37,543 nucleotides of DNA from Anaerolineae bacterium (GTDB lineage Bacteria > Chloroflexota > Anaerolineae > UBA4142 > SHND01), in assembly GCA_020851635.1 (NCBI GenBank), contig JADZCJ010000138.1, positions 1 to 37,543 of the forward strand, written 5' to 3'. The position numbers and the translations under genes are program-made. The notes beneath the pieces were generated by a model. The model was given only the letters and a program-made list of their open reading frames with translations. It made no database searches and had not been told where the DNA came from. Shown piece by piece: positions 1 through 11,129 of the stretch. How positions within the stretch are numbered: position 1 is the stretch's first letter; the number at the start of each line of letters is the position of its first letter.

Positions 1-387
1 ATTGAGAATCGGAATCGAAAGTTTTGCCGCGCCCGAGTTGTATGTGCCGAGATACGCCATTACCGTCGGGTCGGCGACCGCATTGTTTGCATTGGTGGTT
101 TCGACATCCGGGTCCCACGCCCCGCGCGCCGCGCTGGCATCGTCCTTGGTTTCCACAACAATTGTGTAATTGCCCGATTTGTCGCCGTGAGTCTTGAGAG
201 CGAGTTTGGCAGAATTTGCCATGGCAATGCCGTCAGCCGAGTCGCCGCCGGTCAACGGTGTGCTGGAAATGATCTTGATCGTGCCCCCCGCCGTGGCAGG
301 GGCGGCGCCGGGCACCGGGGCACACGCGGCAACGACTGCGAGCGCAGTCAGCACTAGCGCGATCGTGACGATTGATTTGAGTTTCAT
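1..387 (-). CDS. Liv-type substrate-binding lipoprotein (N-terminal part)
   Basis: The reading frame is open from an ATG at 387 to the window edge (129 codons). The ATG follows a strong Shine-Dalgarno (AGGAGGAGAAAGAGG). The N-terminus is a lipoprotein signal peptide: KLKS, a hydrophobic run, then a VAAC lipobox with Cys22. The mature part begins with the GTIKIISSTPLTGG pattern typical of branched-chain amino acid (PBP1) binding proteins. It lies 200 nt downstream of livF on the same strand, so it is probably a second binding protein for the same transporter set. The substrate cannot be told; the C-terminal two thirds lie outside the window. Confidence 0.85.
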   Translation of the reverse strand, partial: MKLKSIVTIALVLTALAVVAACAPVPGAAPATAGGTIKIISSTPLTGGDSADGIAMANSAKLALKTHGDKSGNYTIVVETKDDASAARGAWDPDVETTNANNAVADPTVMAYLGTYNSGAAKLSIPILN

Positions 388-400
388 CCTCTTTCTCCTC

Positions 401-528
401 CTAAAGAGCGTACAACAATTTGGTGTGCTGAACAGCCGTATCATCCGCCGCAGAAAGACGTCCTTTCTGCCAGATTGCCAATCTTCTAGGCGGCATTCGG
501 ATCAACAAGTTAGCTTGTCACCTCCTTT
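401..528 (-). other. Very strong Shine-Dalgarno with possible 35-codon leader ORF
   Basis: Between livF and the binding protein, the minus strand reads AAAGGAGGTGA at 528-518, an unusually long complement to the 16S rRNA 3' end. No standard gene follows it. A TTG at 508-506 opens a 35-codon frame that ends in TAG at 403-401, directly on the Shine-Dalgarno of the next gene. The spacing from GGAGG to this TTG is about 12 nt, which is long. This could be a leader peptide, a ribosome stand-by site or chance. Confidence 0.25.
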
Positions 529-587: not shown

Positions 588-1301
588 TTACTCTTCACCC
601 AAATATGCCTTGCGGACCTGTTCGTTTTCTGCCAATTCCTTTGCATTGCCTTCGAGAATGATGCGACCCGTTTCGAGCACATACCCACGGTTGGCGACCG
701 AGAGCGCGCGGGTCGCGTTCTGCTCGACCAGCAAGATCGTGACGCCCTCCTCGTTCAGCGCCTTGATAATGTCAAATATCGTGTCTACGAGCACGGGCGC
801 AAGACCCATCGAGGGTTCGTCGAGCATCAGGACGCGCGGACGGGTCATCAGCGCGCGTCCCATGGCAAGCATTTGTTGCTCGCCCCCGGACAAGGTGCCG
901 CCCGCCTGGGAACGGCGTTCGGCAAGCCGCGGAAAGAGCTTCATGACGTGGTCCAGGTCCTTTTGGATCCCCTCCTTGTCTTTGCGCGAATAGGCGCCCA
1001 TTTCAAGGTTCTCCATCACGGTGAGCCGTGTAAAGATTTGACGCCCCTCGGGTGATTGCCCGATGCCCTTGCTGACGATCAGGTGCGGAGCAAGCCCGCT
1101 GATGCGTTCACCTTCGAGATCCACAGTGCCCTGGCGCGGATGAAGTAGACCCGAAATCGTTTTCAACGTGGTCGTCTTACCCGCGCCGTTTGAACCGATC
1201 AGTGTGACGACCTCGCCCTGTTCCACCGTCAGGGAAATGCCCTTGAGCGCGTAAATGTGACCGTAATAGGTGTGAATATCGTTGACGGCAAGCAGTGGCA
1301 T
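588..1301 (-). CDS. livF: Branched-chain amino acid ABC transporter ATPase LivF
   Basis: 237 aa, the normal LivF length. Cytoplasmic ATPase that with LivG powers the LivHM permease. Walker A GSNGAGKT is at residues 36-43, the signature LSGGE at 137-141 and Walker B VLMLDE at 157-162. The family-specific stretches ALKGISLTVEQGE and GLAPVLVDTIFDII are present, and the protein ends KAYLGEE as LivF proteins do. The ATG at 1301 follows AGAGGA at 5 nt. It lies 108 nt after livG, in the same direction. Confidence 0.95.
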   Translation of the reverse strand: MPLLAVNDIHTYYGHIYALKGISLTVEQGEVVTLIGSNGAGKTTTLKTISGLLHPRQGTVDLEGERISGLAPHLIVSKGIGQSPEGRQIFTRLTVMENLEMGAYSRKDKEGIQKDLDHVMKLFPRLAERRSQAGGTLSGGEQQMLAMGRALMTRPRVLMLDEPSMGLAPVLVDTIFDIIKALNEEGVTILLVEQNATRALSVANRGYVLETGRIILEGNAKELAENEQVRKAYLGEE

Positions 1302-1409: not shown

Positions 1410-2186
1410 TCAGATATGAATTTCAGAAGCGCCGAGATACGCCTCGCGGACGCGCGGGTCTTGCTGCACATGTTGAGGTGTGCCTTCGGCGATCTTGATC
1501 CCGAAATCCAGGACCGTGACGCGCTCCGAGATCGTCATGACAACGCGCATGTGATGTTCGATCAATAGAATGGTCACGTTCATTACCTCACGGACCTTGC
1601 GAATAAAATCAACCATCGAGAGACTTTCCTGGGGGTTCATGCCTGCGGTGGGCTCGTCGAGCAGCAGCAGCTTGGGCTGTGTGGCAAGCGCACGCGCAAT
1701 TTCCAAACGACGCTGGTCGCCATAGGCAAGGTTTTTGGCGAGACTGTTTTCCTTGCCGCGCAAATTGACAAATTTCAAGAGCTCGCGCCCGCGTGTCACC
1801 ACGCGTTCCTCCTCCTCGCGCGTGCGTTTGGTCTTGAACACTGCGCCGACGACCCCGGCTTTCATGCGCGGATGCTCCCCAATCATGACATTTTCCAGAG
1901 CAGTCATGTTGCTAAAGAGGCGAATATTCTGAAAAGTGCGCGCAATCCCCAGCGTCGTGATCTGGTGCATTTTCATGCCAACCGTCGGCGTCCCGTTAAA
2001 CTTGATGACACCCTCTTCAGGCGTATAGTAACCGGTTATGCAGTTAAAAAAGGTGGTCTTGCCCGCGCCGTTTGGACCGATAAGACTCACGATCGATCCT
2101 TCTTCAATCGTAAAGTCTACACTGTCCACGGCGGTCAAACCGCCGAACCGTTTGGTCACACCTTTGGTTTCGAGGATGGTTGGCAT
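1410..2186 (-). CDS. livG: Branched-chain amino acid ABC transporter ATPase LivG
   Basis: 258 aa. ATPase partner of LivF. Walker A GPNGAGKT is at residues 37-44. The signature is LAYGDQ (153-158), the LivG form rather than LSGGQ. Walker B LLLLDE is at 173-178, followed by PTAGMNP. The insert with RTFQNIRLF and the C-terminal AYLG are typical of LivG. It starts 16 nt after the end of the GlnQ-type gene, so a PAAT-type ATPase and the HAAT-type ATPases are likely on one transcript. The Shine-Dalgarno is weak, but the start agrees with the family N-terminus. Confidence 0.95.
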   Translation of the reverse strand: MPTILETKGVTKRFGGLTAVDSVDFTIEEGSIVSLIGPNGAGKTTFFNCITGYYTPEEGVIKFNGTPTVGMKMHQITTLGIARTFQNIRLFSNMTALENVMIGEHPRMKAGVVGAVFKTKRTREEEERVVTRGRELLKFVNLRGKENSLAKNLAYGDQRRLEIARALATQPKLLLLDEPTAGMNPQESLSMVDFIRKVREVMNVTILLIEHHMRVVMTISERVTVLDFGIKIAEGTPQHVQQDPRVREAYLGASEIHI

Positions 2187-2202: not shown

Positions 2203-2949
2203 TCAATGAAGGATTTTGCTCAGAAACTGTCTCATCCGTTCGTTCGACGGGTTGTCAAACAGTTCGCGCGGGGGACCTTTGGCAATGATCTGCCCCGCTT
2301 CCATAAAAATGACGTTCGAGGCGGCGTTGCGCGCAAAACCCATCTCGTGCGACACCACCAGCATGGTCATACCTTCGCGCGCAAGATCGAGCATCACGTC
2401 CAGCACCTCGTTGATCATTTCCGGGTCGAGCGCACTCGTGGGTTCATCAAAAAGCATCACCTTGGGATTCATGGCGAGCGCACGGGCGATGGCGACGCGT
2501 TGCTGTTGCCCTCCCGAAAGCTGTGCGGGATAATTTTGCGCTTTTTCCGGAATCCGGACTTTTTTCAACAGGTCGTGCGCAATCTGTTTGCTCTCTTCCG
2601 CATTGCGCTTGCGTACCTTGGTCTGGGCGAGCGTGAGATTTTCCAGAACGGTGAGGTGGGGAAACAAGTTGAACTGTTGAAAGACCATCCCCACTTCGGC
2701 GCGCACCGTGTTGATGTTTTTGTGCTGGCTGTCAATCACCGTGCCGTCAACGATCACCCGCCCACTGTCTATTGTCTCCAATCCGTTGATCGAACGCAAG
2801 AGGGTGGACTTGCCACAGCCGCTGGGTCCGATGACGACAAGGACTTGGCCCTTGACCACGTCAATCGAGACTCCGCGCAAGGCATGCACATTTCCAAAAT
2901 GCTTGTGGACATCCTGAATACTGACAATCGGGCCGGTCGCGCTGGACAT
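2203..2949 (-). CDS. glnQ: Polar amino acid ABC transporter ATPase (GlnQ type)
   Basis: 248 aa. ATPase of the polar amino acid (PAAT) family. Walker A GPSGCGKST is at residues 41-49, VFQQFNLFPHLTVLEN in the Q-loop region, signature LSGGQ at 144-148 and Walker B VMLFDE at 164-169 followed by PTSALDPE. These details separate it from LivG/LivF. The ATG at 2949 sits 3 nt beyond the stop of the permease gene, which indicates translational coupling. The symbol reflects the family; glutamine specificity is not shown. Confidence 0.92.
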   Translation of the reverse strand: MSSATGPIVSIQDVHKHFGNVHALRGVSIDVVKGQVLVVIGPSGCGKSTLLRSINGLETIDSGRVIVDGTVIDSQHKNINTVRAEVGMVFQQFNLFPHLTVLENLTLAQTKVRKRNAEESKQIAHDLLKKVRIPEKAQNYPAQLSGGQQQRVAIARALAMNPKVMLFDEPTSALDPEMINEVLDVMLDLAREGMTMLVVSHEMGFARNAASNVIFMEAGQIIAKGPPRELFDNPSNERMRQFLSKILH

Positions 2950-2952
2950 GAA

Positions 2953-3825
2953 TCACATCTGTTTCCAGCGGGTTTCGACAAAGCGAACAACCGCCGAAAG
3001 AATCAGAGTCAACACAAGATACATAAAGGCGAGGGTTGTGTAGGTTTCGATGTAGCGAAAGGAGGCGGAGGCATAGAGCCGCGCTTCCTGAGTCATGTCA
3101 CGAACGCCGAGCGCCGAGACCAGTGACGAATCTTTGAGCATCGAAATCAGGTCATTGCCGAGCGGAGGCAGCACTCGGCGAATCGCTTGGGGCAGCACCA
3201 CATAGCGCATTGCCTGCGGATAACTCATCCCGAGCGAGCGTGCAGCTTCCATTTGCCCCCTGCCGATAGACTCGATGCCCGCGCGAAAGGTTTCGGCTTC
3301 ATAGCCGCCATAGGCAAAAGCGAGGGCGATGATACAACGCAAAGTAAAGTCAATATCGCGCGAGCGCACCGTGGTCAGCGCATTGGGGTCACCCAGGATT
3401 GGCGTCAGCCATTGACCCAGCGCATTGACGCCATCAATTACGAGGGGAACGATCACAAACGCCCAAAAGAGCAGCTGGACAAGAATTGGGACGCCGCGAA
3501 TCACCTGCACATAAAGCGTCGCGACATTGTAAATGACCTTGTTTTTCGAAACGCGCCCAAGACCTGCCGCAAGACCAAGTATCAGCGCTGAAATATACGA
3601 AATAGCCGTGACATAGATGGTGACGACAACACCGTTGAGGATGCGGCCAAGCGCTGTGACATAAGTTTCATTCGAGCTATACAAATAGATCAAAAGTATG
3701 CCGGCCAACAAAATAAAAATGAGCCAATAGGGAAGGTTTGCAAGCTGGTCCACGGCGCGTGACTGCGCCGAGATGGGTGTTGCTTGCGGTGTTCGAGGGG
3801 CTCCGCTCCCCGCAGGTCCTTGCAT
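2953..3825 (-). CDS. glnP: Polar amino acid ABC transporter permease (GlnP/HisM type)
   Basis: 290 aa from the ATG at 3825. Inner-membrane permease with a Pro/Ala/Ser-rich cytoplasmic N-terminus (about 35 residues), a first membrane helix (YWLIFILLAGILLIYLY) and further helices. The EAA-type coupling loop lies in the second half (GQMEAARSLGMSYPQAM, then LPQAIRRVLPPLGND). A TTG five codons upstream (3840) is in frame but lies inside a strong hairpin, and neither start has a clear Shine-Dalgarno. It pairs with the GlnQ-type ATPase. Only one PAAT permease gene is seen, so a homodimer is likely. Confidence 0.88.
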   Translation of the reverse strand: MQGPAGSGAPRTPQATPISAQSRAVDQLANLPYWLIFILLAGILLIYLYSSNETYVTALGRILNGVVVTIYVTAISYISALILGLAAGLGRVSKNKVIYNVATLYVQVIRGVPILVQLLFWAFVIVPLVIDGVNALGQWLTPILGDPNALTTVRSRDIDFTLRCIIALAFAYGGYEAETFRAGIESIGRGQMEAARSLGMSYPQAMRYVVLPQAIRRVLPPLGNDLISMLKDSSLVSALGVRDMTQEARLYASASFRYIETYTTLAFMYLVLTLILSAVVRFVETRWKQM

Positions 3826-3834
3826 CTCGAGTGT

Positions 3835-3866
3835 GGGCAAAGCTGCCCGGTGAGGCAGCTTTGCCC
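3835..3866. other. 13-bp perfect stem-loop between binding protein and permease genes
   Basis: GGGCAAAGCTGCC (3835-3847) and its exact complement (3854-3866) enclose a 6-nt loop. For the minus-strand transcript the hairpin comes 24 nt after the stop of the fused binding-protein gene and just before the permease start. No U-run follows it on that strand; the T-run is on the plus-strand side. A partial terminator or an mRNA-stabilising element that raises binding-protein level over permease level is the likely role. Confidence 0.6.
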
Positions 3867-3889: not shown

Positions 3890-6007
3890 TTATGGCGTTG
3901 TGGTGGGATATTCAACCGGAGCAATATCATCATACGAGATTTGCTCACCGCCGAACCACTTTTTGGCGAGCGCTTCAAGTGTCCCGTCGGCGCGCATTGC
4001 CGCGAGTGCGGCGTTGACCGGCGCGACCAAATCGGAACCTTTGGGAAATACAAACCCGAGCTGTTGCCCGACCATTGATCCCTCGAGAAGTTTGATTTTG
4101 TCCGCATTCACGCCGACATAACCGACTCCTGCAGTGTCGTCAATGACAACACCGTCCACGTCGCCGGCGATCAGCGCCTGCACGGCATCACCAAATGTGT
4201 CAAAGGCAACAACGCGGCTTTCGCCGACGAGTTTGACGGCTTCTTCATAGTTTGTTGTGCCTTTTTGGGTGCCGAGACGGGCGGTGGTGCTGTTCTTAAA
4301 GTCATCAATGGACTTGAACGTGGTATCATCCAGCCCGACCATGATGCGCTGATCAACAGAGATATAGCCATCAGAAAAGTCAACAGTCTTGGCGCGCTCG
4401 TCGGTGATGGTGATGCCGTCCGCCGCCATGTCAAACTCGCCCTGTGAAACGGCGGTGATCATGCCATCCCATGCAATTTCCTTGAATTCGGGGGTGCAGT
4501 TCAATTTCTTGCAGAGTTCGGCGAGCGCGTCATAATCCCAACCCTCCGCCTTGCCATTATCGAGACGGATATAGTTGAATGGGATGTATGCGTTCTCGAT
4601 CGCGACCGTGATGGTGCGCCCGCCGAGATCAGGGACCGCTCCGGCAGAAGCGCCGCCCGTCGGGGTCGGCTCGGGTTTGGGATAGACCTGCACCCACGCG
4701 CCATCCTTGACTTCGTTGATGATGACGTTGGTGGATTCAGGTGGGCGGTCGCCCGTTGCGTCAAAGGCAATTGCGCCCGTCACGCCCTCGAGATTGGTGG
4801 CGCGCACTGCATCGGCAAGCGCTTTGCGCCCGACAACCAGATCACCGTTCGCGTCAACCGTAGCTGACGCTTTCAGCGCTTCGACCAGAATGTGCACCGC
4901 ATCGTAGGTTTGAGGGCTGAACACAATGTTTTTCGGATCGCCGCCTTTGGCTTGATACGCCGCAACGAAATCCTTGTAACCGGCGCCTTGCTGCGAAGAA
5001 CCGAACGAGGCATACACACCCTCGGCAACCGCGCCCAGATTGGATATAAAGTCGGCGCTAAACGTGCCGTCCGCGCTCATGAGCACTGCATCCGCGAGAC
5101 CGACTTCTTCCTTTTGCGTGGCAATGACTGCCGCTTCCGGCCAGAAACCACCAAAGAAAATCATTTCGGGCGCGCCGGCAGCGACTTTGGTCAGGGTCGC
5201 CCGAAAATCTTTTTCACCCACAGTCACAGCTTCCGTGTCGCCGACGATCTCACCCCCGCCTGCGGCAAACGCTTCGGCGAATGCTTGGGCAAGACCTTGA
5301 CCATAAGGCGAACCGTCATGCATGATCGCGGCTTTTTTGAGACCGAGCTCTTTTAGGACAAAGTTGGCATCCGCAGGACCTTGAATCTTGTCATTGAACG
5401 CCGTGCGAAACACGGACTGCAGCCCGCGCGCCGTCACCTGGACTGCCGTAGCAGAGGGCGAGATGCTTACAATGTGTGCCTTGTCAAGAATCTCGGTGCC
5501 CGGGATTTCACCCGAAGAGCACATAAAACCAATGTGACCGACAATTGCGGGATTGGCGACAATCTTGTTGGCAATCGTGGTGCCGCCGGGACCCGAGCAC
5601 AAGTCATCTTCGGTAACGACCTCGAGGGCGAACCCATTGATGTCTTTGCCGAAATCTTCGGCGCCCATGTTGGCGCCCAATTGCATGTCAATGCCAAATG
5701 CGGCGAGGTCACCGGTCATGGCTGCGCTAAAGGACGCCTTGATAGTGTCGCCCTTTTTGACAGTGACGGTCCCCCATTCATCCGCAGCCGCCGCGGGCGC
5801 AGCTGTAGCTGCAGGTGCAGAAGTTGCGGCAGGTGCAGAAGTTGCGGCGGGCGCAGAAGTTGCCGCAGGCGCGGAAGTTGGGGCGGGGGCGCTTGTGGGC
5901 GCGGGGGCGGGTGCTGCGGCAGGTCCACAGGCGGCGATGACAAACATCAGCGCCAGGACCAGCGTGCCGAGCACAAACGTGCGTTTAGAGACGGACGATC
6001 CATTCAT
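3890..6007 (-). CDS. Fused two-domain amino-acid-binding lipoprotein (PBP1-PBP2)
   Basis: 705 aa from the ATG at 6007, preceded by GGAGGAGAACCGC; the frame extends 28 codons upstream without a ribosome site. Signal peptide with VIAAC lipobox (Cys27), then a low-complexity Pro/Ala/Thr/Ser tether to about residue 75. Residues about 80-450 are a complete Liv-type (PBP1) binding domain ([44 protein letters not shown]). After the linker [10 protein letters not shown], residues about 462-705 are a complete Gln/Arg-type (PBP2) domain ([57 protein letters not shown]). Either half matches a whole stand-alone binding protein. Its neighbours are permeases of both kinds, so it may feed both. No frameshift is seen; the fusion is one clean frame. 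Confidence 0.9.
5796..5903 (-). repeat. 18-bp tandem repeat coding the lipoprotein tether
   Basis: Six units of 18 bp start at 5796, 5814, 5832, 5850, 5868 and 5886. They encode an SAPAAT-like hexapeptide in the flexible tether right after the lipidated Cys27 of the fused binding protein. The units nearest the globular domain are the most alike; the outer ones have diverged. Copy number is likely to vary between strains. Confidence 0.75.
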
Positions 6008-6362: not shown

Positions 6363-6391
6363 AGTATATCGCAGTTAATTTCGAGTGTCAA
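6363..6391 (-). promoter_or_regulatory. Sigma70-type promoter for binding protein-glnPQ-livGF
   Basis: Minus strand TTGACA (6391-6386), 17-nt spacer, TATACT (6368-6363). It lies 44 nt beyond the livM stop. It gives the downstream genes a transcript of their own in addition to read-through from the livHM promoter. Confidence 0.75.
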
Positions 6392-6434: not shown

Positions 6435-7976
6435 TCAGGTGGTCTCGACGGTTTCCATCTCTGGATCACGCTCGGCAAATTCGCGCTGCTGACGGCTCGC
6501 CGGAATCAGCCCGGCTGGACGGACGAGCATCATGACGATCAAAAGCGCCGAATAAGCCAGCAGCCGATAATCAGAAATTGGGCGTAGTATTTCGGGCAGC
6601 CCAATCAGCACGACCGAGCCGATAATAACCCCCGGGATCGAACCCAATCCCCCAATAATAATGAGCGCAAGCGCATTGATGGATACAAGCAGGGTAAAAT
6701 CGTCGGGAAAAATGTGCTGCTGACGCGAAGCATAAATGGCGCCGCCCAGACCGGCAAAGAATGCGCCCAGCCCGAACGCAAGCAATTTGATATGAGTGGT
6801 GTTGATCCCCATCGCTTCAGAGGCATCCTCATCTTCGCGCATCGCCGCCCACGAGCGACCCAGCCGCGAATCATTCAGTCGGAGAGCTACAAAGGCGACG
6901 ATCAAACACGCAAAAAAGATGAGATACCAATAGGCAGTGGACGAGGCGAATTCAATCGTGACCCCGATAATAGGGATCGTGATAGTGGGCGGCGCGACGT
7001 TCAGAATACCTTGCGGACCTCCCGTATAGGGGTTGAATTTGAGAATGATGCGGATGATTTCCCCAAACCCCAGTGTGACGATGGCGAGATAGTCGCCGCG
7101 CAATCGGAGGACCGGGATGCCCAGCAATGTTCCTGCAATCGCTGCCATGATCATTGCGATTGGCAAGGCGAGCCAAAAACCCCAGCCAAATGGATAGTCA
7201 GGCGAGGTGAGGACTGCCATCGTATAGGCGCCGATGGCATAAAAACCGACATACCCCAGGTCGAGCAGCCCCGCAAACCCGACGACAATGTTAAGCCCCA
7301 GCCCCAAAAGCACAAATAACCCGATGGATCCCAACACCTGATTCCAATAGACGCTCAGAAAAAGCGGAGCGATGAGCAAAGCGGCGGCGAGGACCGCCAG
7401 AATGATTATGCGAGTCTGATTACCCCGAACGACGCCCGGACCCGCAGACCGCGCTCCCTTTTTTTGTAGATTCAGGGCGCGCCACCCGAACAAGAGCAGC
7501 GCCCCGACTGCGCCCCCGACGGTCATGAGCACAACCCAGATCGCGCCGCCGATCAAGGGCGGTTGTCCAAACAACAGCGCCGTAATAGTCGGTTCTTTTA
7601 GTTTCTCAAAGACAAAAGAAACGTTAAAGCCATTCGCATAAAGCCAGTTCATCAGGATCAAAAAGATGGCAACTATTGCGCCTGCCGTTGCCAGTGCGAT
7701 CGCAGCACGCAGAATCCCCTGTCCGAGTTTGACAGATGGACGCGCGGCAACCGCGCCGGCAACCAACGCGGCGATGACGGTAAAGATTCGGCTGAACTGC
7801 TGATTGGTCAGCGTGGGTGTCTGCGCCGCAATCTCGCTCGCGGTGGCGCCCAGGACCGTCAACCACAATCCGCTCAGCGTCAACGCCTCGAAGGTGGTAT
7901 AGATTCCGATGAGGATAAAAAAGATGAACGCGATCCCCGTGACGAGACCGGAGCGCAGACTATCGGAAATTTTCAT
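6435..7976 (-). CDS. livM: Branched-chain amino acid ABC transporter permease LivM, extended
   Basis: 513 aa, long for LivM (commonly 300-430). The core begins near residue 190 and has the family patterns GLNIVVGFAGLLDLGYVGFYAIGAYT, GDYLAIVTLGFGEIIRIIL and the C-terminal SINALALIIIGGLGSIPG. Residues 1-180 are an extra region with about four hydrophobic helices whose role I cannot name. It starts 10 nt after livH, so the two permease subunits are coupled. The ATG at 7976 has only a weak ribosome site, which fits re-initiation from livH. The permease is in the cytoplasmic membrane. Confidence 0.92.
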   Translation of the reverse strand: MKISDSLRSGLVTGIAFIFFILIGIYTTFEALTLSGLWLTVLGATASEIAAQTPTLTNQQFSRIFTVIAALVAGAVAARPSVKLGQGILRAAIALATAGAIVAIFLILMNWLYANGFNVSFVFEKLKEPTITALLFGQPPLIGGAIWVVLMTVGGAVGALLLFGWRALNLQKKGARSAGPGVVRGNQTRIIILAVLAAALLIAPLFLSVYWNQVLGSIGLFVLLGLGLNIVVGFAGLLDLGYVGFYAIGAYTMAVLTSPDYPFGWGFWLALPIAMIMAAIAGTLLGIPVLRLRGDYLAIVTLGFGEIIRIILKFNPYTGGPQGILNVAPPTITIPIIGVTIEFASSTAYWYLIFFACLIVAFVALRLNDSRLGRSWAAMREDEDASEAMGINTTHIKLLAFGLGAFFAGLGGAIYASRQQHIFPDDFTLLVSINALALIIIGGLGSIPGVIIGSVVLIGLPEILRPISDYRLLAYSALLIVMMLVRPAGLIPASRQQREFAERDPEMETVETT

Positions 7977-7986
7977 GATCTATTTG

Positions 7987-9075
7987 CTATGCTTTTTCTT
8001 TGCCCGAATCGGAGCCCAGAATCCCTTGCGGTCTAAAGAGCAGCACAAGCACCAGCACGGTAAAGGCAATCACATCCTTGTACTGGGAGGGAATGTCGAG
8101 CAGGGTCGGACCCAAAGCTTCGGCGAGACCGAGAATGATGCCTCCCAACATCGCGCCGGGAATGTTGCCGATGCCACCGAGCACTGCTGCCGTAAATGCT
8201 TTGATGCCGGGAAAGAAACCCATGGTGGAATTGATCTGGCTGTTGTGAAATCCGAGCATCACGCCCGCTGCGCCCGCCAAAATCGAACCGATAGCAAAGG
8301 TCGTGACAATGATCAGGTCCACGCTGACGCCCATGAGCGATGCCGCTTCTTTGTTGGTAGCTATAGCGCGCATCGCAGCTCCGGTGCGTGTGCGTTGGAC
8401 GAGCCAGTAGAGCGCCGCCATGAGAATGATCGAAGCGATAATAATCATTGCGCCCGTTTTGGGCATTGGAATGCCGCCGGGCAGGATGATGACGCCGGTC
8501 AAGAATTCGGGTTTGGTATAGACGCGAATGGGCGCGCCAAAAATCAAGCGCGCTGCCTCTTGCATAAAGACAGACGCGCCGATGGCAGTGATCAAGGGCA
8601 CCAGACGAGGAGCAGTACGGAGCGGACGATAGGCGATGCGCTCCAGCCCTATCCCGGTAATCATCGAAACGATCATGCCCGCCGCAAAGACCAGTCCAAA
8701 GGTGAGATACTGATTCGATTCCAGCAGCCCTGCCGCGCTGCAAGCGGACAGGACAAAAAAGCCCGCATATGCGCCAAACATCATGACTTCGCCGTGGGCG
8801 AAATTGATCATAAACAGGATGCCGTAAACCAGCGTATAGCCGAGCGCGATCAGGGCATAGACACCGCCGAGGGTCAAGCCATTCCCGATTTGAAGACCCC
8901 AATAGGTGAGAGGATAGGATTTTGTCGCGAGCACCATGATCATGCGCGCGACCAACAACAGGACAAAAAAAGCCGCGACGATAGCAATCCAATTGACGCG
9001 CGTATGCCAGGGGCGCAGGTGGGTGACAGATGTGTCGGGGGGAACGCTGCTATCAGATTGAGTTGCCGGTGCCAA
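7987..9075 (-). CDS. livH: Branched-chain amino acid ABC transporter permease LivH
   Basis: 362 aa, with an N-terminal extension of about 55 residues compared with typical LivH. Core patterns are NGLTLGGVYALIALGYTLVYG, INFAHGEVMMFGAY, and the coupling loop RTRTGAAMRAIATNKEAASLMGV. The start is TTG at 9075, chosen because AGAGGAG stands 5-6 nt upstream and no ATG with a ribosome site lies near. It is the first gene of the transporter cluster, under the promoter at 9178-9150. Confidence 0.92.
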   Translation of the reverse strand: MAPATQSDSSVPPDTSVTHLRPWHTRVNWIAIVAAFFVLLLVARMIMVLATKSYPLTYWGLQIGNGLTLGGVYALIALGYTLVYGILFMINFAHGEVMMFGAYAGFFVLSACSAAGLLESNQYLTFGLVFAAGMIVSMITGIGLERIAYRPLRTAPRLVPLITAIGASVFMQEAARLIFGAPIRVYTKPEFLTGVIILPGGIPMPKTGAMIIIASIILMAALYWLVQRTRTGAAMRAIATNKEAASLMGVSVDLIIVTTFAIGSILAGAAGVMLGFHNSQINSTMGFFPGIKAFTAAVLGGIGNIPGAMLGGIILGLAEALGPTLLDIPSQYKDVIAFTVLVLVLLFRPQGILGSDSGKEKA

Positions 9076-9242: not shown

Positions 9243-9314
9243 AGCGGGCGAAGAGATTCGAACTCTCGGTCTTTTCCTTGGGAAGGAAACATGTTACCAC
9301 TACACCACGCCCGC
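9243..9314 (-). tRNA. tRNA-Gly (anticodon CCC)
   Basis: The minus strand folds as a 72-nt cloverleaf. The acceptor GCGGGCG pairs with CGCCCGC, with discriminator T. The D arm contains GTGTAGTGGTAAC. The anticodon arm is TTTCC-TTCCCAA-GGAAA, which places CCC at 34-36. The T arm is AGAGT-TCGAATC-TCTTC-like. CCA is not encoded. It has its own consensus promoter and terminator. The CCC anticodon reads GGG codons. Confidence 0.93.
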
Positions 9315-10108: not shown

Positions 10109-11062
10109 TCAGTTGGTTTTGGCTTCCGAGCCGGATGACGCTTTGGTTGTGCCGGCAGTGCCGCCCGTGCCGGGCGCGCCGGGCGCTTTTCGGGTCGAGG
10201 TCTTGCCGCGCGAGGCGCTCTGCGGTCCCGTGTGACGATAGAGGAACCAGATGCTGCAAATCACAAAGGCGGTGATGGAAACGATTTGGGCGACGGGTAC
10301 TCCGGCAAAAACCCAGGCATCGGGTCGCTGCATTTCGGTAAAAAAGCGCACCAGCGGATAGAAAATCCCATACAACAATACCATATCGCCGGGCTTGAGC
10401 GTCTTGTCCCAACGCCGCGCGATATAGAGGAGCAGCCCCGTGACCACAAACATGCCGAGCGATTCATAGAGAAATGTCGGGTGAAAGCGCGTCGTATCCG
10501 GCAAGTTGCTAAATTGCGGCAGGCGATGCGCCAGATCAATTGGTATCCCCCAGGGCAAATCGGTGGGATAACCATAGAGCTCCTGATTGATAAAGTTGCC
10601 CCAGCGTCCAATCGCCTGTCCGAGCGCCAGACCGGGCATTGCAGCATCCACGAGGGGCCAAAATCTTATCTTGGCGAACTTGGTGTATATCCAAATCCCA
10701 AAAATACCGCCCACCGCCGCGCCAAAAATCCCAAGCCCACCCGTGCGCGGGTTCAGGACATTAAACAGATTGGTCGCAAAATCCTGAGAGAAATAGCCGA
10801 GCGGGTCCCCCTGGGCGACGTCAGAAAGCACGTGATACAGCCGCGCCCCCAGCACGCCAAAAAGCAGAGCAAAAAGAAGCGCATTCCAAACATGGTCAGG
10901 GTCAATCCCCTTGCGTTTGGCTTCGACCGACGCAAGAAAAGCCCCTGCGATGGCGGCGACGACGATCAGAATACCATACCAATAGATCGGGAGCGATGTT
11001 TGCCCAAAAATGGCAAAAGGGAGAGGAATCGTAAAAGCTACGGGGTCCGGAGTAAAATTCAT
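10109..11062 (-). CDS. lgt: Prolipoprotein diacylglyceryl transferase
   Basis: 317 aa from the ATG at 11062, preceded by GAGG; a TTG one codon upstream is the alternative. Lgt moves a diacylglyceryl group from phosphatidylglycerol to the lipobox Cys of prolipoproteins in the cytoplasmic membrane. The Lgt signature GRWGNFINQELYG is present, together with YGILI near the N-terminus, GGLGIFGA, and the late HPTFLYES. There are about seven membrane helices. The last 45 residues are a Ser/Thr/Gly/Lys-rich tail beyond the normal end. It would serve the many lipoproteins in this window. Confidence 0.95.
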   Translation of the reverse strand: MNFTPDPVAFTIPLPFAIFGQTSLPIYWYGILIVVAAIAGAFLASVEAKRKGIDPDHVWNALLFALLFGVLGARLYHVLSDVAQGDPLGYFSQDFATNLFNVLNPRTGGLGIFGAAVGGIFGIWIYTKFAKIRFWPLVDAAMPGLALGQAIGRWGNFINQELYGYPTDLPWGIPIDLAHRLPQFSNLPDTTRFHPTFLYESLGMFVVTGLLLYIARRWDKTLKPGDMVLLYGIFYPLVRFFTEMQRPDAWVFAGVPVAQIVSITAFVICSIWFLYRHTGPQSASRGKTSTRKAPGAPGTGGTAGTTKASSGSEAKTN

Positions 11063-11129
11063 CAAATCCTCATTCTGTCTCGGACAACGAGATAAACTCG
11101 CTGTGCGCTAGCGAATTTTTTCGGCGCGA

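Follow-up and report, generated by a model that had tools for sequence, protein, structure and literature searches.

Our analyses show that one open reading frame of the window (the whole stretch of Anaerolineae DNA analysed, 37,543 nucleotides) joins a Liv-type (PBP1) and a Gln-type (PBP2) binding domain in a single predicted lipoprotein, and that both importer types have their permeases and ATPases encoded in the surrounding operon (LivH, LivM, LivG and LivF; GlnP and GlnQ). ABC importers are usually described with one binding-protein family per transporter. A carrier that unites two unrelated families of binding protein in one chain and is encoded alongside both matching importers would be new, and in the open-licence literature our searches turned up no binding protein of mixed families that serves two importers. 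We consider it likely that the fusion acts as a single lipid-anchored carrier whose two binding sites work independently and each supply a separate importer.

Two binding domains in one predicted lipoprotein

The fused gene starts with an ATG at 6007 and stops at 3890 on the minus strand, with zero internal stops. It comprises:

3890..6007, minus strand: fused binding lipoprotein PBP1-PBP2, 705 aa (open reading frame and Pfam)
5927..6007, minus strand: signal peptide with lipobox IAAC and predicted lipidated Cys27 (sequence)
5780..5926, minus strand: A/P/T/S-rich repeat tether, residues 28-76 (tandem repeat)
4739..5746, minus strand: PBP1 domain, Liv type (Peripla_BP_6), residues 88-423 (Pfam and LIVBP alignment)
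4625..4687, minus strand: interdomain PTPT linker, residues ~441-461, contains [12 protein letters not shown] (sequence)
3950..4612, minus strand: PBP2 domain, Gln/Arg type (SBP_bac_3), residues 466-686 (Pfam and AncQR/ArtJ/GlnBP alignment)

The original prediction had described a 705-aa product with lipobox, repeat tether, PBP1, PTPT linker and PBP2, and Pfam and PDB comparisons bear out both its coordinates and its domain calls, the two expected Pfam families being found and each half lying above its cut-off. The PBP1 half matches Peripla_BP_6 with 132 bits (cut-off 31.7, E 3.9e-38, profile positions 1-330 of 343) and, in the PDB, LBP and LIVBP (2lbp, 1z15; E about 5e-38); the PBP2 half matches SBP_bac_3 with 127.8 bits (cut-off 26.4, E 2.8e-37, profile positions 1-131 of 132) and, over the whole PBP2 length, AncQR, GlnBP and ArtJ (4zv1, 4f3p, 2pvu) at 31-36% identity, with a VIA Z of 26 when this half alone was compared with GlnBP. 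The scores against curated models are lower than their cut-offs: PBP1 reaches 181.5 bits with the LivJ/K model NF011933 (cut-off 477 bits), PBP2 reaches 125.7 bits with the GlnH equivalog NF007029 (cut-off 303 bits) and falls below every NCBIfam equivalog cut-off. The predicted lipoprotein signal peptide ends in IAA followed by a Cys at residue 27, and a lipobox was also found in the five related fusions checked; the tether DNA consists of about 4.9 copies of an 18-bp unit. The AlphaFold model, built from an 8-row alignment, is too weak to read domain arrangement or contacts from (mean pLDDT 60.5, pTM 0.42). The next-best matches to the fusion in its own genome are distant paralogues of about 28% identity.

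Aligned with GlnBP-type proteins, PBP2 keeps the Arg and Asp that we take to hold the alpha-carboxyl and alpha-amino groups, and PBP1, aligned with LIVBP, keeps CSS and SATA, presumably ligand motifs, as well as the conserved Cys pair of LivJ/LivK. Lys115 and His156 of E. coli GlnBP, which we assume to contact the Gln side chain, appear to be replaced in PBP2, and the pocket motifs of this domain look closer to those of ArtJ/AncQR than to E. coli GlnBP, which suggests a basic or polar amino acid as its ligand. PBP1 has most of what we take to be the LIVBP ligand motifs, but Asp where LIVBP has Glu226, and its ligand may therefore not be leucine-like.

A composite Liv and Gln operon

The fusion is the third of seven minus-strand genes in the order LivH-LivM-[fusion]-GlnP-GlnQ-LivG-LivF, a composite context that was absent from the original prediction. 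The other genes and elements are:

7987..9075, minus strand: LivH-type permease (profile matches)
6435..7976, minus strand: LivM-type permease (profile matches)
6363..6391, minus strand: promoter-like site TTGACA-17-TATACT in the 427-bp gap before the fusion gene (consensus match only, 11/12 bases)
3835..3866, minus strand: intercistronic hairpin with a 13-14 bp stem between the fusion gene and glnP (hairpin at the same place in 6/6 genus members)
2953..3840, minus strand: GlnP/HisM-type permease (HEQRo_perm_3TM above cut-off; BPD_transp_1)
2203..2949, minus strand: GlnQ-type ATPase (best NCBIfam model GlnQ, 329 bits, under its cut-off of 379)
1410..2186, minus strand: LivG-type ATPase (BCA_ABC_TP_C above cut-off; best NCBIfam model LivG)
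588..1301, minus strand: LivF-type ATPase (best NCBIfam model LivF)

Gaps between these genes measure 10 bp (LivH-LivM), 427 bp (LivM-fusion), 3 bp (GlnP-GlnQ), 16 bp (GlnQ-LivG) and 108 bp (LivG-LivF); the listed TTG start of GlnP is at 3840, with an ATG at 3825 being more likely. Among the operon genes there is no binding-protein gene other than the fusion and no sensor kinase or receptor gene, and the next GlnP in the genome is only 35% identical. The hairpins that follow the fusion gene differ in sequence among the six genus genomes, have z-scores of -2.1 to -5.4 and carry no U-tract on the coding strand; by analogy with known importer operons, a hairpin between binding-protein and permease genes agrees with binding protein usually being made in excess of permease. 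Near the fusion gene, Rfam gave neither a riboswitch nor any other match.

Other features of the window were also recorded. A tRNA gene lies at 9243-9314 on the minus strand (Rfam, 67.7 bits), and positions 9351-9324 match a promoter-like TTGACA-16-TATAAT site perfectly. Positions 10109-11065 (minus strand), about 1 kb upstream of livH, read by eye like Lgt, the prolipoprotein diacylglyceryl transferase. At the contig start, positions 1-501 (minus strand) give a weak PBP1 match of 19 bits, and relatives carry a second PBP1-LivH-LivM cluster there.

Domain shuffling and selection within the genus

The original prediction had proposed a search for the same architecture elsewhere; fusions of this kind are found in five other species of the genus and also in other families. 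All six genus genomes (G000-G005), each a different species, have a single fused binding protein in this operon, and the seven-gene order is the same in G001-G005, with LivH-LivM of G004 beyond the contig end. The domains themselves are shuffled: G000 and G001 have PBP1-PBP2, G002 has PBP1-PBP1-PBP2, G003 has PBP2-PBP1 and G005 has PBP2-PBP1-PBP1, the protein of G004, cut by the contig end, terminating in PBP1-PBP2. The genus thus holds four domain orders or copy numbers, with the order reversed in two of the six members (G003 and G005), and provides a natural experiment on the tolerance of linker and order. The two PBP1 copies of G002 form an exact 1106-bp DNA repeat; those of G005 share 84% amino acid identity. 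Interdomain linkers of the fusions span ~14-25 aa. All sources are draft genomes, of which some at least were assembled from metagenomes, and the contigs JACQWQ010000191.1 and JAKOPZ010000066.1, from Chloroflexota metagenome assemblies, belong to genus members. A short-peptide scan of 84,980 species genomes returned only two close relatives (L060 and L061), which are the G001 and G005 loci.

Both halves of the fusion are under purifying selection similar to that on their permeases. Between G000 and G001, dN/dS is 0.125 for PBP1, 0.074 for PBP2, 0.125 for GlnP and 0.12 for LivH, rough values since dS is near saturation; GlnQ of G000 was left out because its row had picked a paralogue. The trees place PBP2 and GlnP of G002 and G004 each in a divergent clade (support 100/100), and the Liv parts of G002 are no more divergent than the others. 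This co-divergence is consistent with a partnership between PBP2 and GlnP.

Origin of the composite operon

Sister family f2 has the gene order GlnH-GlnP-GlnQ-LivG-LivF-LivJ-LivH-LivM, with separate LivJ-like and GlnH-like binding proteins, in keeping with the earlier statement that Liv-type and Gln-type domains normally sit in separate proteins. Three f2 genomes (G018, G008 and G010; loci L066, L069 and L071) have no GlnQ between GlnP and LivG, and GlnP of their composite operons may use another ATPase. An open reading frame that reads like a nucleotidyltransferase occupies the GlnQ place in L066 and L071.

A common origin of the Gln modules of f2 and of the fusion-bearing family f1 was considered and rejected on the trees, in which PBP2 and GlnP of f1 cluster among stand-alone GlnH-GlnP pairs from other families, away from f2; LivG alone places f1 within f2. 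Because of this grouping, the Liv-Gln composite operon seems to have been assembled or refitted more than once.

Mixed fusions elsewhere in the class

The samples covered Chloroflexota genomes, with the best matches taken per genome, and brought out mixed fusions in other families of the class. In G288, GlnP is preceded by a PBP1-PBP2 fusion of 694 aa. The PBP2 of this fusion has its closest match in G097 (52%) and shares just 33% identity with the PBP2 of the window; because the PBP2 ancestry differs, this fusion is very probably independent, and the mixed Liv-Gln fusion has very probably had more than one origin. A 1133-aa PBP1-SBP_bac_3-SBP_bac_5 protein precedes DppB-DppC-GlnP-GlnQ in G036; in G097, SBP_bac_3-SBP_bac_5 and DppB-DppC-GlnP-GlnQ come after Liv genes. 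PBP1-SBP_bac_5 proteins lie before DppB-DppC in G066, G283 and G256 (the last with a permuted SBP_bac_5), as do SBP_bac_3-SBP_bac_5 proteins in G083 and G051, where no GlnP was found in the stretch read. Same-type tandems (PBP1-PBP1, PBP2-PBP2 and three PBP2) are also common. The type of the second fused domain tends to agree with the adjoining permeases, SBP_bac_5 going with DppB-DppC and SBP_bac_3 with GlnP, a correspondence that is good but not perfect. Gln permeases adjoin the PBP1- and PBP2-containing proteins of G288 and G036, and no Liv permease was found within the 16-20 kb read, so that PBP1 would there act in trans or do something else. Since the Liv-Gln fusion very probably has more than one origin and mixed fusions that include peptide-binding domains turn up in scattered places across the class, such fusions look like a lineage habit, not an accident. 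On plasmids, tblastn found zero records covering 80% of the 705-aa protein; in the best record there are two separate genes and no importer operon among the annotated neighbours.

Several further architectures were seen in these loci. The fused SBP_bac_5 is circularly permuted (blastp), with its C-terminal ~370 residues first and its N-terminal ~110 after, in L083:4621-8019 (G036), L084:1640-4405 (G097), L103, L104, L128, L130 and L136, and is in normal order in L085, L122, L123 and L137. The same L084 protein, an importer binding protein, has a CxxCH haem-binding-like segment (Dehyd-heme_bind, E 1.3e-6) before SBP_bac_3. L081:6024-8612 (G017) encodes an 863-aa Ser/Thr protein kinase fused to Peripla_BP_6, likely an amino-acid sensor kinase. 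Proteins of 750-880 aa in L109, L110 and L111 (G004, G002 and G019) have SBP_bac_3 followed by an Ig-like N_BRCA1_IG domain, and L138:2305-4767 (G289) encodes an 820-aa PBP2-PBP2-PBP2 binding protein.

Proposed function and alternatives

The N-terminal lipid and the flexible A/P/T tether would anchor the fusion on the outer side of the cell membrane. PBP1 would probably capture an amino acid and dock on LivHM(GF), and PBP2, on its short flexible linker, would capture a polar or basic amino acid and dock on a GlnQ-driven GlnP dimer, the two halves presumably working independently by analogy with GlnPQ (PMC8025302). The fusion would mainly replace two lipoproteins by one, and both importers would therefore, we propose, get a tethered partner at a fixed 1:1 ratio. 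We favour this two-site carrier because full Liv and Gln sets lie in the operon with the fusion as sole local binding protein, because the protein stays single and fused in all six genus members despite four arrangements, and because both halves are under purifying selection. It is further favoured because the divergent PBP2 clade of G002 and G004 is mirrored by GlnP and absent from the Liv parts, because LivJ-like and GlnH-like genes are separate in the sister family, whose gene set is otherwise the same, because the second fused domain of other families tends to match the adjoining permeases, and because a stable hairpin follows the binding-protein gene in every genus genome. The ligand residues and motifs that PBP1 and PBP2 keep, with the roles we assume for them, also argue for it, as do the tandem domains of GlnPQ, which bind ligand independently (PMC8025302). 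Counting against it are the lack of a nearby Liv permease in G288 and G036 and the Asp of PBP1 at the Glu226 position. The original prediction had left two possibilities, delivery of two ligands or a second domain that senses or relays. The first gains from the cognate importers in the operon, purifying selection, PBP2-GlnP co-divergence and a hairpin like those of ordinary binding-protein operons; the second loses ground, as order and copy number are shuffled in the genus and the operon has no sensor kinase or receptor gene.

An artefact joining two genes, which the original prediction had named as a possible refutation and which could be imagined from draft genomes and from the exact repeat in G002, has a negligible probability and is ruled out for the fusion as such, since six species of the genus, as well as G288, have the intact fused frame and the tandem copies of G005 differ from each other. 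The shuffling within the genus, which also excludes assembly error, argues against a fixed relay. Receptor-like regulation, with PBP1 as an assembly or allosteric domain tuning PBP2 and not a carrier, would be in line with the order shared with glutamate receptors in full-length Foldseek matches and with the missing Liv permeases near the G288 and G036 proteins; it is nevertheless very unlikely given the reversed order in two of the six genus members, the Liv permeases in the operon, and a PBP2 colinear with GlnBP and free of a pore insertion. Short flexible linkers, freely changing order and a sister family that does well with separate proteins would suit a neutral fusion, persisting without benefit as its domains still work, but the members of the genus stay fused amid other rearrangement and a Liv-Gln fusion very probably arose again elsewhere with a different PBP2, so that neutrality appears distinctly improbable. 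The fusion might instead bridge both importers, holding LivHMGF and GlnPQ as one coupled complex, an idea compatible with their common operon, with the fused state kept throughout the genus despite order changes and with composite operons with fused binding proteins recurring in other families; simultaneous docking on two membrane complexes may, however, be strained by such short linkers, and PBP1-PBP1 and PBP2-PBP2 tandems need no bridge, which leaves this reading unlikely. More generally, and rather doubtfully, modular binding-protein "polyproteins" of Liv-, Gln- and peptide-type domains in varying order might physically couple different ABC importers; if so, one lipoprotein would coordinate uptake through two or three transporters.

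Comparison with known systems

Compared with single-domain proteins, PBP1 resembles LivJ/LivK (LIVBP/LBP) in its Cys pair and ligand motifs and differs from them in scoring under the NF011933 cut-off and in being joined to a second domain, whereas PBP2 resembles GlnH, ArtJ and AncQR over its whole length and differs from GlnH in its sub-threshold equivalog scores and its more ArtJ/AncQR-like pocket. GlnPQ of Lactococcus lactis, like the fusion, has two binding domains per chain on a short linker, of 14 aa in this case, each tandem domain having its own ligand and binding independently (PMC8025302). Unlike the fusion, both of its domains are of the SBP_bac_3 family and are joined to one permease; the 705-aa protein is not fused to a permease, GlnP being a separate open reading frame (2953-3840), its domains belong to different families and two importers are encoded. 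Same-family tandems such as GlnPQ are already known.

Ionotropic glutamate receptors and plant GLRs likewise have, in their ATD-LBD ectodomain, a PBP1-type followed by a GlnBP-type domain in one chain, the order found in the window and reversed in G003 and G005. Foldseek matched the full-length model to GluA2 and plant GLR3.4 with TM-scores of 0.25-0.31 (from a weak model, pLDDT 60.5) and the second half to GlnBP-type proteins; because global TM-scores are low, the likeness to glutamate receptors is one of domain order, not of domain arrangement. The receptors have a pore inserted between the lobes of the GlnBP-type domain, whereas PBP2 is colinear with AncQR/GlnBP without a large insert, and the fusion, unlike them, has no ion-channel insert, a predicted lipid anchor and an importer operon. 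Bacterial GluR0 has no amino-terminal domain (PMC6385376), and that of eukaryotic receptors is attributed to another, separate fusion with a binding protein (PMC3483616). We reject a direct kinship between the 705-aa protein and glutamate receptors, the nearest sequence relatives of each half being bacterial binding proteins. As judged from these comparisons, the layout is a convergent pairing without a channel, and the fusion would offer a bacterial, channel-free example of the glutamate-receptor ectodomain layout, useful for testing that layout by itself.
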